Below, in pieces: positions 403-35,125 of a stretch of 44,257 bases of DNA. The notes beneath the pieces are model-generated. The model ran no database searches. It was not told where the DNA came from and saw nothing but the letters and a program-made list of their open reading frames with translations. The translations under genes and the position numbers were made by a program. The DNA comes from Fibrobacter sp. (GTDB lineage: Bacteria; Fibrobacterota; Chitinivibrionia; Chitinivibrionales; Chitinispirillaceae), in the NCBI GenBank assembly GCA_012523595.1, contig JAAYIG010000172.1, positions 1 through 44,257 of the forward strand. The letters are read 5' to 3'. Position 1 is the stretch's first letter, and every line of letters starts with the position of its first letter.

Positions 403-421
403 TTCTTTTTCTCCGGTTAAA

Positions 422-582
422 ATCAGGTAAATCATCTTAATCAGATTAATCATAGTTAAAGACATTTCTGATCATCTTACTCAACGGTCAAATGGCATCA
501 CGGTTGCATTATTTATCAGGTAAATCATCATAATCAGGTTAATCATAGTTTAAGACATTTCCTAAACATCTTAATCAGAGGT
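422..582 (+). repeat. Two copies of a ~58-bp block made of 9-nt degenerate repeats, upstream of thioredoxin
   Basis: Copy one is 422-479 and copy two 515-573. They are nearly identical and separated by 35 bp of unrelated sequence. Each begins with four in-phase 9-nt units of the form ATCANNTWA (first copy: ATCAGGTAA, ATCATCTTA, ATCAGATTA, ATCATAGTT), followed by a shared 'aagacattt' segment. A further unit, ATCAGAGGT at 574-582, abuts the start of the thioredoxin gene and contains its likely Shine-Dalgarno sequence (GAGGT, 5 nt before ATG). Related units occur elsewhere in the window at about 16283-16320, 21160-21192 and, inverted, 33937-33971. Seen directly; function unknown. Confidence 0.8.
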
Positions 583-587
583 CTGGG

Positions 588-14446: not shown

Positions 14447-14525
14447 GGGTACGACATTACGACATTATGACGCTACGACAAACATGACACTACGACAATA
14501 TGACACTACTGGGTACGACAATAGG
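14447..14525 (+). repeat. 8-nt degenerate tandem array (TACGACAW)
   Basis: About nine units of consensus TAYGACAY run in series (TACGACAT, TACGACAT, TATGACGC, TACGACAA, then ACATGACAC, TACGACAA, TATGACAC, TACTGGG, TACGACAA). The period is 8 with one or two single-base slips. There is no open frame through it on either strand that looks coding. A short inverted piece of the same motif is at 14694-14725, so the arrays face each other across about 170 bp. Confidence 0.8.
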
Positions 14526-16282: not shown

Positions 16283-16320
16283 ATAATCACGGTAATTCTT
16301 TAATCAGGTAAATCAGGGTC
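16283..16320 (+). repeat. 9-nt repeat units (ATCANNTWA family)
   Basis: Sequence reads ATCACGGTA, ATTCTTTA, ATCAGGTAA, ATCAGGGTC, with spacings of about 9 and 8. It is the same family as the block upstream of thioredoxin, and is about 90 bp upstream of the HAD phosphatase start. Confidence 0.65.
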
Positions 16321-21116: not shown

Positions 21117-21192
21117 CCAAGGTAATTCCTTAAAGGCTTCTTCTTCCAAATTTCAATACATCCTTTAATCAAGAAAATCATGGTTTAAGACT
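21117..21192 (+). repeat. 9-nt repeat units upstream of the ABC exporter genes
   Basis: Units resembling ATCANNTWA occur at about 21160-21192 (TTTAATCAAGAAAATCATGGTTTAAGAC). A related GGTAATTCCTTAAAG segment is at 21121-21135 and echoes the GGTAATTCTTTAA at the 16283 locus. The shared end 'GGTTTAAGAC' echoes 'AGTTTAAGAC' of the thioredoxin-upstream block, so the core plus tail recurs. Confidence 0.6.
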
Positions 21193-26675: not shown

Positions 26676-28979
26676 ATGAAACCGTCTATTTTATCATTAA
26701 TAATAGTCCTTCTTTTCAGTGTAGCAGTCCTGTCTGATGTGGATAATAATCCGATCAGTAATGGAAACACGCAGACCCGTAATGCGCTGGGACGTACGTT
26801 TGAGGGTGCGATTCACAACCCGGCAGTTCTTGGGGTGGAGAGAATCCCGAAAGGCGGTATGCCATTTCCCGCGTCGAACTTCGGAATAGGGGTCTGGAGT
26901 GATAAACTGTGTCTTACACCTTTAATTGGTGCTGATTTTAACAAATACTCCATCCTTACCAGTGAAGTGCTTACAAGAAGTTTTGACTTGTACGGACTCA
27001 GCGAGTCGGAAGTTTCTGAAAAATTGACAGAAGAACTCAAAGGCGGAACCCGCGCCTACGCAGGAGCCAGAGCATCACTGCTCAGCTATGCCTGGAACCG
27101 GTTTGCTTTTGATATCACTACGCACATGGATGCTGAAATAAAGATACCGGAAGGTTTCTTTTATACGATTTTTTCCGAAACTAAGGGTTTACTGCAGGGT
27201 AACAAGCTCGATTTCAGCGGACTTCGGGAGGAAGCAATCTGGGCAACAGATTTTACTTTCAGCATAGGATTACCTGTTTATGTCCCGGCTCTGCATAACT
27301 TCTTCAAACTTAGATACGGGGCCGGAGGTTTGAGTGTCAAATATATCATGGGCCATTCAATTTTGAAATCTGAAACAGAAATGGGGTCCGTAGAGTATAG
27401 TGAGATTACAAATGACATCGATTTTAACGGTAACATCAAAATCAAGTCTGCAGGTACAGGTTTCTATGGCAACTGGGATTGGGACAGCCCTTTTTCACAA
27501 TCCATTCTCCCTGTGTCAGGTCACGGTATTGGTGTAGATCTGGGAGGTATTCTTTACGACGAGCATGGGACAATGGTCATAAATTTCCATAATATCGGAG
27601 TCTTGTTCTGGATGAAAGGTGTAAAGGAAGTCTCTTATGAAATAGATAAAGATCATTACACCGCCTATGACTATTTAGAGAAAGACGATGATGATTTTAT
27701 TGAGAGTGATGATTCCCTGAAAACCGGTAATGGTTTTGCCACTCTTCTTCCTTTCTCAGTTAACATAGGGTATGCCTACTCCTGGGATCTTTCCAGACAA
27801 AAGAACCAGAAGCTGAGATATCTTGCTGAATACGCAAACGCCAGCGCCAACTACGAGCAGCAGCTCTCAAGAAGTCCGGGACGCAGGATGATTCCCAGGC
27901 TCTCAATTGGTGGTGAAGCTGGTACCCTGAGAGGGTATTTGCCTGTAAGGCTCGGTCTTATTTTTGGAGGACCGGAACTCATCGCTTCTGCAGTAGGTGC
28001 TGGTATCGATTTCAAGTACGTCTCCGCAAATGCCTCATACAAGGCAGTTGGATCTCCGTTTCTCATCCCTAAAAGGGGTATGGAGCTTGCCGTCGGGCTC
28101 AACTTCGCCTGGGGAATGGAAGTTGACACAGACAAGGATGGTATACCGGATAATGTCGATAAGTGTCCCAGAAATCCTGAGGACCCCGACGGGTTTGAGG
28201 ATAAAGACGGGTGTCCGGATTATGACAATGATAACGACGGTATACCGGATTCTCTTGACAATTGTCCCAATGTCCCTGAAGACAAGGACAATTTCCAGGA
28301 TGATGATGGATGTCCGGAGTATGACAATGATGGAGATGGTGTTCCGGATTCTCTTGACAAATGTCCTAATCTGCCGGAGGATATAGACCTGTTTGAAGAT
28401 GACGATGGGTGTCCGGATTACGATAATGACAAGGATGGAATCCCGGACACAGTTGATAACTGCATCTCGGAACCGGAAACATATAACGGATACAAAGACG
28501 ATGACGGATGTCCCGATACTCTTATCAGGCCGTCTGAGAAAGAAACAAAGGTGCTCAACACAAAACTGCGTGCAATCAATTTCAAAACAGGAAGTGCTGA
28601 GTTGCTGCCTGTTTCTTTCGCCGCTCTGGATTACATCGCGGATTTCCTCAAGCAGTATTCTCACCTGCGCTATGAGATTCAGGGGCATACAGATGATCAG
28701 GGTTCCGATGAGTACAACCTGGTGCTTTCTGCCGCCCGCGCCGGTACTGTCCGTGCCTATCTGTTGTCAAAAGGTATCCCGGAAAGCAGTATCCTGGCTA
28801 TCGGCTATGGTGAAACAATGCCCATAGCGGATAACAAAACCGCCAACGGACGAGCCCTTAACAGACGTGTTGAGTTCAAGATAATCGAGAGTGAGGAAGA
28901 TTATCAGATGCTCAAGACAAGGGAAGAGGTGTTTAGAGACAAAGTGAAAAATTCTAAAATAAAAGGCACCCGCTTCTAA
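26676..28979 (+). CDS. OmpA-family outer-membrane protein with thrombospondin type 3 repeats
   Basis: A 767-residue protein in three parts. A signal peptide (residues 1-20, ending AVLSD) leads a long N-terminal region of about 460 residues that looks like a barrel or beta-rich domain. Residues about 484-613 hold four calcium-binding type 3 repeats (D.DGIPD..D.CP). The C-terminal OmpA/MotB domain (about 620-750) carries the peptidoglycan-binding signature HTDDQGSDEYNLVLS..RA and the final NRRVEFKI. It should tie the outer membrane to the cell wall, with a calcium-stabilised linker. It follows the large lipoprotein gene by 25 bp, with AGAGAGG about 11 nt before the ATG, and ends at a strong terminator. 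Confidence 0.9.
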   Translation: MKPSILSLIIVLLFSVAVLSDVDNNPISNGNTQTRNALGRTFEGAIHNPAVLGVERIPKGGMPFPASNFGIGVWSDKLCLTPLIGADFNKYSILTSEVLTRSFDLYGLSESEVSEKLTEELKGGTRAYAGARASLLSYAWNRFAFDITTHMDAEIKIPEGFFYTIFSETKGLLQGNKLDFSGLREEAIWATDFTFSIGLPVYVPALHNFFKLRYGAGGLSVKYIMGHSILKSETEMGSVEYSEITNDIDFNGNIKIKSAGTGFYGNWDWDSPFSQSILPVSGHGIGVDLGGILYDEHGTMVINFHNIGVLFWMKGVKEVSYEIDKDHYTAYDYLEKDDDDFIESDDSLKTGNGFATLLPFSVNIGYAYSWDLSRQKNQKLRYLAEYANASANYEQQLSRSPGRRMIPRLSIGGEAGTLRGYLPVRLGLIFGGPELIASAVGAGIDFKYVSANASYKAVGSPFLIPKRGMELAVGLNFAWGMEVDTDKDGIPDNVDKCPRNPEDPDGFEDKDGCPDYDNDNDGIPDSLDNCPNVPEDKDNFQDDDGCPEYDNDGDGVPDSLDKCPNLPEDIDLFEDDDGCPDYDNDKDGIPDTVDNCISEPETYNGYKDDDGCPDTLIRPSEKETKVLNTKLRAINFKTGSAELLPVSFAALDYIADFLKQYSHLRYEIQGHTDDQGSDEYNLVLSAARAGTVRAYLLSKGIPESSILAIGYGETMPIADNKTANGRALNRRVEFKIIESEEDYQMLKTREEVFRDKVKNSKIKGTRF

Positions 28980-33708: not shown

Positions 33709-33939
33709 TCAGGCTTTTAACGGCCTTTCCATTGGATAAACAGTGATGGAGTTATCCGTTGCGGTCTGCCTGATTTTTCTGGCGAATTCTCTTGCAGTGT
33801 TGGAATCGTAAAGAACAAGGAATGAGTCACCGAAAAAACGCGGAAGTCTGTCGCCTTTAAGCCAGTTGAGATGGATGTTTACCTGTTCACGTAGAAACGA
33901 CGAATCGGAACCTGAATAACCTATGCCTAAATATGCCAC
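33709..33939 (-). CDS. Small protein of unknown function
   Basis: A 76-residue soluble protein starting at GTG (33939), with mixed charge and no membrane segment. I do not recognise it. The start codon and its likely ribosome binding site (AGGA, 8 nt upstream) fall inside units of the 9-nt repeat. It ends 19 bp before the putative toroid gene and is probably the first gene of the glycan operon. Confidence 0.55.
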   Translation of the reverse strand: MAYLGIGYSGSDSSFLREQVNIHLNWLKGDRLPRFFGDSFLVLYDSNTAREFARKIRQTATDNSITVYPMERPLKA

Positions 33940-33971
33940 CTTGATTATCCTGATTAGAGGATTTCCTTGAT
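33937..33971 (-). repeat. 9-nt repeat array at the start of the small-protein gene
   Basis: On the minus strand it reads ATCAAGGAA, ATCCTCTA, ATCAGGATA, ATCAAGGTG, with periods 9, 8, 9. The final unit contains the GTG start codon at 33939 and the preceding unit contains AGGA at ribosome-binding distance. The same family as at 422-582. Confidence 0.75.
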
Positions 33972-34299
33972 TTTAACTAGAGAAAAAGAATTACTAATGT
34001 CTGGTATCCGGAATTTCTACCAATAGAGTGCAGTTTAATTCAGATACTAACTCTAATTACCTCAAGGGCTAGAAAACAAAATTAATAAAAAAAATGGCGA
34101 TTTGAAAGAATTGGACTTCTTGTAATCCGCTTTATCCGGAACAGGTATTACGGATCGGATGCTCTGAGATTGTTCTGGAATTCAAGCTGTTTTTTCAGGC
34201 ACTCTAACTCTATCTCTTCATCGGGGCCGGTATTGGAATCGGAATCGATACTTTTGCTCTGTATTACGGTGTGATTTCACTGGAAAAACACAGAAGTTT
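33940..34299. other. Intergenic region, no gene seen
   Basis: This gap of 360 bp lies between the small-protein gene (pointing away) and the end of the STAS gene. Apart from the 9-nt array at its left edge and a 6-nt array at 34228-34251, the sequence is AT-rich with no convincing open frame. It should contain the promoter of the glycan operon. Confidence 0.6.
34228..34251 (+). repeat. 6-nt array (GGTATC/GGAATC family)
   Basis: Units GGTATT, GGAATC, GGAATC, GATAC in series with period 6. It is related to the arrays at 14532, 19086 and 19184. No inverted partner was seen nearby. Confidence 0.65.
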
Positions 34300-35052: not shown

Positions 35053-35125
35053 GGGGCTGTAGCTCAGCTGGGAGAGCGCGACGTTCGCAATGTCGAGGCC
35101 AGGGGTTCGATCCCCCTCAGCTCCA
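35053..35125 (+). tRNA. tRNA-Ala (anticodon CGC)
   Basis: A 73-nt cloverleaf: acceptor GGGGCTG / CAGCTCC with the G3-U70 wobble pair that identifies alanine tRNAs, D stem GCTC/GAGC, anticodon stem CGACG/TGTCG, loop TTCGCAA with anticodon CGC (reads GCG), T stem AGGGG/CCCCT with loop TTCGATC, discriminator A. The 3' CCA is not encoded. Confidence 0.95.

Follow-up and report, generated by a model that had tools for sequence, protein, structure and literature searches.

Five intergenic sites in a 44,257-nt stretch of a Fibrobacter sp. genome (contig JAAYIG010000172.1; the whole of this stretch is called the window below) carry arrays of a degenerate 9-nt unit, and at two genes the repeat runs into the start codon with a Shine-Dalgarno-like sequence, which raises the question of what these repeats are and how they came to lie there. 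Array strings of a similar kind are common in other bacterial genomes. A sequence-only reading of the window had suggested that the repeat is a translation-start cassette or, alternatively, a sequence that inserts at start sites or expands from them. Our analysis makes it probable that the arrays are scattered copies, lacking the gene, of the terminal parts of a small mobile element that contains a GxxExxY open reading frame.

A nine-nucleotide repeat with defined ends

The sequence was read directly at all five sites. Two arrays lie on the forward strand ahead of a thioredoxin gene. Copy 1 (419..491) has four WAATCANNT units (422-464) and ends in AATCATAGTTNAAGACATTTC, with the terminal AATCATAGTTAAAGACA and a tail, ...CTTACTCAACGGTC, reaching to 491; copy 2 (513..583) has its units at 515-557 and the same AATCATAGTTNAAGACATTTC end, with the terminal AATCATAGTTTAAGACA (541-557) and the tail CATCTTAATCAGAGGTC to 583. 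Also on the forward strand are the array at 16283..16320, the most degenerate in the window, which ends in AATCAGGGTCAA, and the one at 21160..21192, which ends in AATCATGGTTTAAGACT, also written AATCATGGTTTAAGAC. The fifth, on the reverse strand (33937..33991), shows a second type of end, with the left part TTTTTCTCTAGTTAAAATCA and the right part ..GGATAATCAAGGTGG, and reaches into the GTG start codon of a gene for a 76-residue protein. More than a bare array, the repeat also shows two kinds of end that recur, AATCATAGTTCAAGACA and AATCAGTGGTC. The earlier description of an array stands, but its supposed last unit, the ribosome-binding "GAGGT" unit ahead of thioredoxin, is not a further array unit; it is the tail of the element and is present after other copies as well. 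In an Rfam search at gathering score the window arrays matched no structured RNA family, the sole match in the window being a tRNA at 35053-35125.

The existence of the arrays and their intergenic position, as first reported, are confirmed far above chance across the genome. The two-unit 16-mer TTAATCANNTTAATCA, with up to one mismatch, has 86 matches in the 4.1 Mb genome versus none for the same pattern read backwards, and the array end AATCATAGTTNAAGACA has 18 matches versus one for its control. The 16-mer matches group into 57 clusters across dozens of contigs, 54 of which lie outside called genes, though a simple gene caller assigned about 71% of the 366 kb examined to coding sequence. Common to the clusters are the defined ends (TTAATCANN)n-TTAATCATAGTTCAAGACATTTC and (..)AATCAGTGGTC, which turn up in either orientation at dozens of unrelated sites, and inverted array pairs are found in this genome on contigs C207 and C212. 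Of the 45 clusters for which both neighbouring genes could be called, 14 are flanked by 5' ends on both sides, 20 by one 3' and one 5' end, and 11 by 3' ends on both sides. Placement in this genome roughly follows the available intergenic space, and specificity for gene starts is absent.

Array-free orthologous sites

The thioredoxin gene (TIGR01068; 588..899, forward strand) lies 3' of array copy 2, and GAGGT at 578-582, five bases ahead of its ATG at 588, does provide the Shine-Dalgarno-like sequence that had been noted. In ten orthologues examined in the family the array is absent from all ten, most have a strong GGAGG, and each carries a sigma-54-type -24/-12 element, TGGCAY-N5-TTGC, 110-134 nt before the codon of the active-site WCxxC. 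The window gene has retained this promoter (TGGCATCACGGTTGC, 493..507, forward strand) between its two arrays, about 156 nt ahead of the WCxxC codon. A promoter kept in this position, farther from the WCxxC codon, indicates that array copy 2 occupies most of the thioredoxin leader and that its tail, with GAGGT, has apparently replaced the ancestral GGAGG as ribosome-binding site; a transcription start near 517 is predicted.

The second gene cited for the start-site arrangement is equally genuine. It encodes a conserved 76-residue protein of unknown family (VAYLGIGYSG..; 33709..33939, reverse strand), is kept in 21 of 24 family genomes, and has AGGA on its own strand 8 nt ahead of the GTG at 33939, so that here too the repeat runs into the start with a Shine-Dalgarno-like sequence. 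Its start is conserved, the first residue being the same in all nine orthologues read, and none of the nine has the array. At the 21160 site a genome of the same genus (G058) retains the flank (CATTTGCCATTTTTA..ATG) and lacks the array, and the gap syntenic with the 16283 site in that genome is likewise array-free; a sequence resembling the 16283 array is present in many near-identical copies in another genome, G014. At every orthologous site examined, in other species or genera, the window arrays are absent. Since they are missing from the thioredoxin and 76-residue gene orthologues, the arrays are insertions rather than conserved signals. These orthologues and the 11 of 45 clusters that lie between two 3' ends speak against a translation-start cassette in general use, and the argument that a period of three codons avoids frame shifts is unneeded because the arrays are not translated.

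An element built around a GxxExxY gene

The sole GxxExxY gene of this genome (PF13366/TIGR04256; C207:6892-7299) is surrounded by an array cluster that ranks among the densest in the genome; inverted array pairs lie around it, and these share their ends and tails with the window arrays. Its leader ends in AATCAGAGGCCAAAATG, that of thioredoxin in AATCAGAGGTCTGGGATG, and the tail AATCAGAGGY-N4..8-ATG precedes the GxxExxY gene here and in a relative, as well as the gene 3' of the relative's element. The family assignment lies above the curated cut-offs, with 127.3 bits against 35 for TIGR04256 and 123 against 22 for PF13366. Across 26 diverse GxxExxY sequences no change was seen at D71, E81 or K83, leaving the D..ExK motif intact, and the AlphaFold model (pLDDT 91) has a fold of the PD-(D/E)XK type, whose best PDB matches are Cas4 (4ic1) and lambda exonuclease at a partial TM of about 0.5. 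Motif and predicted fold together mark the protein as a putative PD-(D/E)XK nuclease. A weak sequence match to the junction-resolving enzyme T7 endonuclease I (E=0.11) is a lead only.

At least 564 relatives occur in Bacteroidota, Cyanobacteria, Nitrospirae, Fibrobacterota and other groups. Because plasmids gave seven relatives, and viral contigs (diverse-alignment scan) and the phage collection none, the family is mainly chromosomal in the collections scanned; outside bacteria, the algal virus CpV-BQ1 has a gene product annotated as GxxExxY (PMC12085832). Two GxxExxY proteins matched none of the PADLOC defence families. In the literature searched, which lay outside subscription journals and preprints, we found no functional content in papers naming GxxExxY, no link from the family to repeats, arrays or mobility, and no mention of the long array motifs.

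The surroundings of the gene were compared at 80 loci from many phyla, of the same clade as the window type and drawn from among the matches listed. By this comparison the full element reads TGTCTGAAC-[inverted 9-nt units]-GxxExxY ORF-[9-nt units]-GTTCAGACA and usually measures 460-600 bp, with TGTCT(T)GAAC at its left end and GTTCA(A)GACA at its right. Within 250 nt of the gene, 60 of 79 upstream and 55 of 77 downstream sides have the end GTTCA(A)GAC facing outward, leaving 19 and 22 sides, respectively, without a recognised end; inward-facing ends are found near 17 of 79 and 11 of 77, and distant control windows contain an end in 19 and 8 of 952 cases (about 1-2%). Both ends are present at 55 loci, with a modal spacing of about 466 bp, and GxxExxY is the only ORF within elements of that size. 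When the two ends of an element are compared over the 14 nt that lie just inside them, agreement is 0.683, versus 0.510 with shuffled partners (z=7.3). In 30 of 54 elements, versus 7 of 48 control sites, an ATG follows 1-5 nt past the right end, and it is thus the proposal of insertion at start sites, rather than that of a cassette, that finds support, for full elements. The gene upstream of the element is on the same strand in 70 of 75 cases, and no excess of matching 2-9 nt flanks, as expected of a target-site duplication, was detected in 54 two-ended elements.

Two variations in this material may be recorded. By eye, about 30 of 75 window-type elements lie in type I restriction-modification operons, after hsdS/hsdM and before hsdR/RhuM-like genes, and PADLOC and Pfam confirmed the few that were tested (neighbours of loci L100-L178). 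At five loci of Fibrobacteraceae type (L081, L082, L086, L088, L252) the boundaries of the GxxExxY gene are CCACACGGATTCG...CGAATCCGTGTGG, and inside them a hairpin, GGAAAATCGTTAGATTTTCC, takes the place of a clear 9-nt array.

Arrays and proteins vary together

The pairing of gene and array was examined further by local autocorrelation beside genes at lags 5 to 15, with no unit sequence assumed. Beside GxxExxY genes the signal peaks at lag 9 in both sets used: 16% of flanks reach 0.7 at 46 diverse loci of the Fibrobacterota phylum versus 1.1% of distant windows, and 12% versus 0.5% at the other 80 loci. The remaining lags are almost nil, apart from a small rise at lag 10 in the Fibrobacterota set. 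The three main GxxExxY clades correspond to the unit types AATC, CACGAAA/ACACGGA and CACAGAG, one genome (G074) has three GxxExxY paralogues with three array types, and between genera the similarity of proteins correlates with that of flanks (Mantel r=0.374, reached in 0 of 2000 permutations). Array unit type tracks GxxExxY subfamily across genera.

A further observation concerns genes of PF05635 (23S-rRNA IVP / four-helix-bundle) that lie outside rRNA (L271-L300), which are accompanied by inverted arrays of period 7, for example AACTGACAACTGACAACT and CACTAACCACTAACCACT. At lag 7, 33% of 57 such flanks give a signal versus 3% of distant windows, and lag 9 is absent. PF05635 with its period-7 arrays is a second gene-array pairing that resembles that of GxxExxY.

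Occupied and empty junctions

Mobility is indicated by comparison of occupied and empty sites between species or genera. In Chitinophagaceae, the junction of trpG and trpD is empty and 3-12 nt wide at four loci (L193, L196, L243, L244), filled by GxxExxY elements of 476-505 nt at three (L231, L232, L233), and occupied by a longer array-bearing insert in L238; two more (L194, L235) hold gene-less inverted arrays of other unit types, and L246 and L245 are weaker candidates. In L231-L233 the left end of the element supplies the trpG stop codon, and in these and L238 the right end abuts the trpD ATG. Two or three of the GxxExxY proteins at this junction are mutually close and one is not, so the full elements there may represent fewer insertions than their number suggests.

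Gene-less copies are also present in G014, where at least six near-identical copies of about 130 bp (L364-L369) have the ends TGTCTGAACC..GGTTCAGACA and inverted arrays; some of them share longer outer flanks (GCCGTTGAT / ATCAACGGC). A gene-less inverted pair, as a single strand, folds more stably than its shuffles (z=-3.6). The G014 copies are a miniature, gene-less form of the element, and they are also the main puzzle for a model based on GxxExxY: no GxxExxY gene was detected in G014 (91% complete) or in G040 (83% complete), both of which have element copies, and for these genomes the model has to assume a different factor or the loss of the gene.

Comparison with known systems

The closest parallel is with REP/REPIN sequences and their RAYT (TnpA-REP) proteins, which are likewise short, dispersed intergenic repeats, present in many copies and often as inverted pairs, with a cognate single-copy gene flanked by repeats and no evident target duplication (PMC3116915, PMC8266576, PMC3733652). 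Dispersed intergenic repeats, single or inverted, are what is found here, with 54 of 57 clusters intergenic and pairs on C207 and C212. The differences lie in the protein, a HUH/Y1 transposase in RAYT and a PD-(D/E)XK-fold GxxExxY here, and in the repeat, a GTAG/CGTC-tagged hairpin in REP and a phased 9-nt array with a TGTCTGAAC/GTTCAGACA end here. The combination of dispersed repeats with a flanked cognate gene resembles REP/RAYT, but the defining transposase (PF01797) is absent from the arrays: none of 58 flanks of Y1_Tnp genes in the phylum has a lag-9 array, and this genome's Y1_Tnp genes, among the matches listed, lie away from arrays. A RAYT partner is accordingly rejected for this phylum.

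Free-standing homing endonucleases of T4-like phages are similar in being small intergenic nuclease genes that cause no disruption and have related empty junctions, and the folds known among homing nucleases include PD-(D/E)XK (PMC2988022, PMC6083498). Occupied and empty junctions are found here too; the present elements, by contrast, have terminal inverted repeats with iterated arrays, occupy many unrelated sites and are accompanied by gene-less copies. Miniature inverted-repeat elements (MITEs) of insertion sequences share the terminal inverted repeats, the lack of a gene and the multiple near-identical copies seen in G014, but here no DDE transposase partner was identified, the 54 two-ended elements gave no target-site duplication, and the arrays are internal and iterated. 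The intervening sequences of 23S rRNA with an S23/IVP ORF are selfish elements that, at 428 nt, are about as long and likewise contain a single tiny ORF (PMC4990558), and IVP genes in this phylum also occur in phased inverted arrays; the protein family differs, as do the period (7 nt versus 9 nt) and the location, the 9-nt elements not being in rRNA.

Alternative explanations

If GxxExxY were cargo or a defence-related nuclease, the cassette would be mobilised by another enzyme, such as a RAYT/Y1 transposase, and the arrays would be the ends of that enzyme's substrate. The copies in G014 and G040 with GxxExxY undetected suit such an arrangement, as do the ten Y1_Tnp matches in this genome and the several elements among type I restriction genes, PADLOC-confirmed where tested. 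We nevertheless consider it unlikely, given that Y1_Tnp genes are not associated with arrays either in the phylum (0 of 58 flanks) or, among the matches listed, in this genome, that GxxExxY is alone in elements of about 466 bp, that its subfamily predicts the array type, and that the two GxxExxY proteins tested fit no PADLOC defence model. Still less probable is a role of the arrays as operators, bound by GxxExxY or another protein to control transcription or translation and spread by operon transfer rather than by self-mobility. Regular 9-nt phasing, arrays upstream of some starts and the same-strand upstream neighbours (70 of 75) would be expected of operators; the 11 of 45 clusters between convergent genes and the array-free orthologues would not, and paired inverted arrays whose termini match, copies lacking the gene, and junctions either occupied or empty are what mobile elements show.

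The host cassette of the sequence-only reading, selected to supply a ribosome-binding site, can point to the tail that serves two window genes and GxxExxY leaders. It is very improbable in view of the lack of preference for gene starts in this genome, the many copies (the majority) that are not beside a start, and the orthologues, which lack arrays and in the case of thioredoxin mostly have their own GGAGG. That replication slippage expanded the repeat locally in tandem, no mobile element being involved, has a negligible chance of being correct: the period-9 tandem structure and the long near-perfect arrays at some loci (such as L087) are what slippage would produce, but the sharing of defined ends by dozens of unrelated sites, in either orientation, and the covariation of inverted ends refute it.

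A possible mechanism and its implications

There remains the mobile element. Sequence comparison shows how it is built, that its ends face outward, that it enters between genes, stop/start junctions among them, and that the orthologous sites examined are array-free; that GxxExxY drives its mobility we infer. The protein would recognise its own iterated ends, or a cruciform that the inverted arrays could form, and cut or nick the DNA there, upon which a gene junction would receive the element, by copying or by transfer. Arrays that lack the gene would either be mobilised in trans by GxxExxY or be remnants. Such a role would parallel, by analogy, that of the RAYT transposase, as thought for REPs, or that of a self-moving homing nuclease. 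Insertion directly 5' of a start codon would swap out the 5' leader, and where the element's purine-rich tail may now act as ribosome-binding site, ahead of thioredoxin and of the 33939 gene, this would be a by-product of insertion, not its purpose.

A broader proposal, to which we give about an even chance, is that a large class of elements, so far undescribed, is mobilised by GxxExxY proteins: PD-(D/E)XK nucleases that read their own 9-nt ends, insert at junctions while keeping operons unbroken and leave arrays without a gene behind, with ACCACAGAGGACACAGAG, CCACGAAATACACGAAA and AATCAGNTTAATCAG as footprints, and with S23/IVP four-helix proteins and their 7-nt arrays as a parallel second class. 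An abundant family with no assigned function would thereby gain a testable role, the recognition of its own iterated ends, and its link to flanking intergenic strings would explain a class of repeats. The thioredoxin leader offers a concrete route from an inserted element to the ribosome-binding site of a housekeeping gene.

The window contains two other tandem repeats. A 99-nt repeat at 28193-28447, within the ORF at 26676-28979, codes for a D/G-rich repeat, and an intergenic array at 14450-14509, with 8/16-nt units (GACACTACGACAATAT), is unrelated to the 9-nt arrays.
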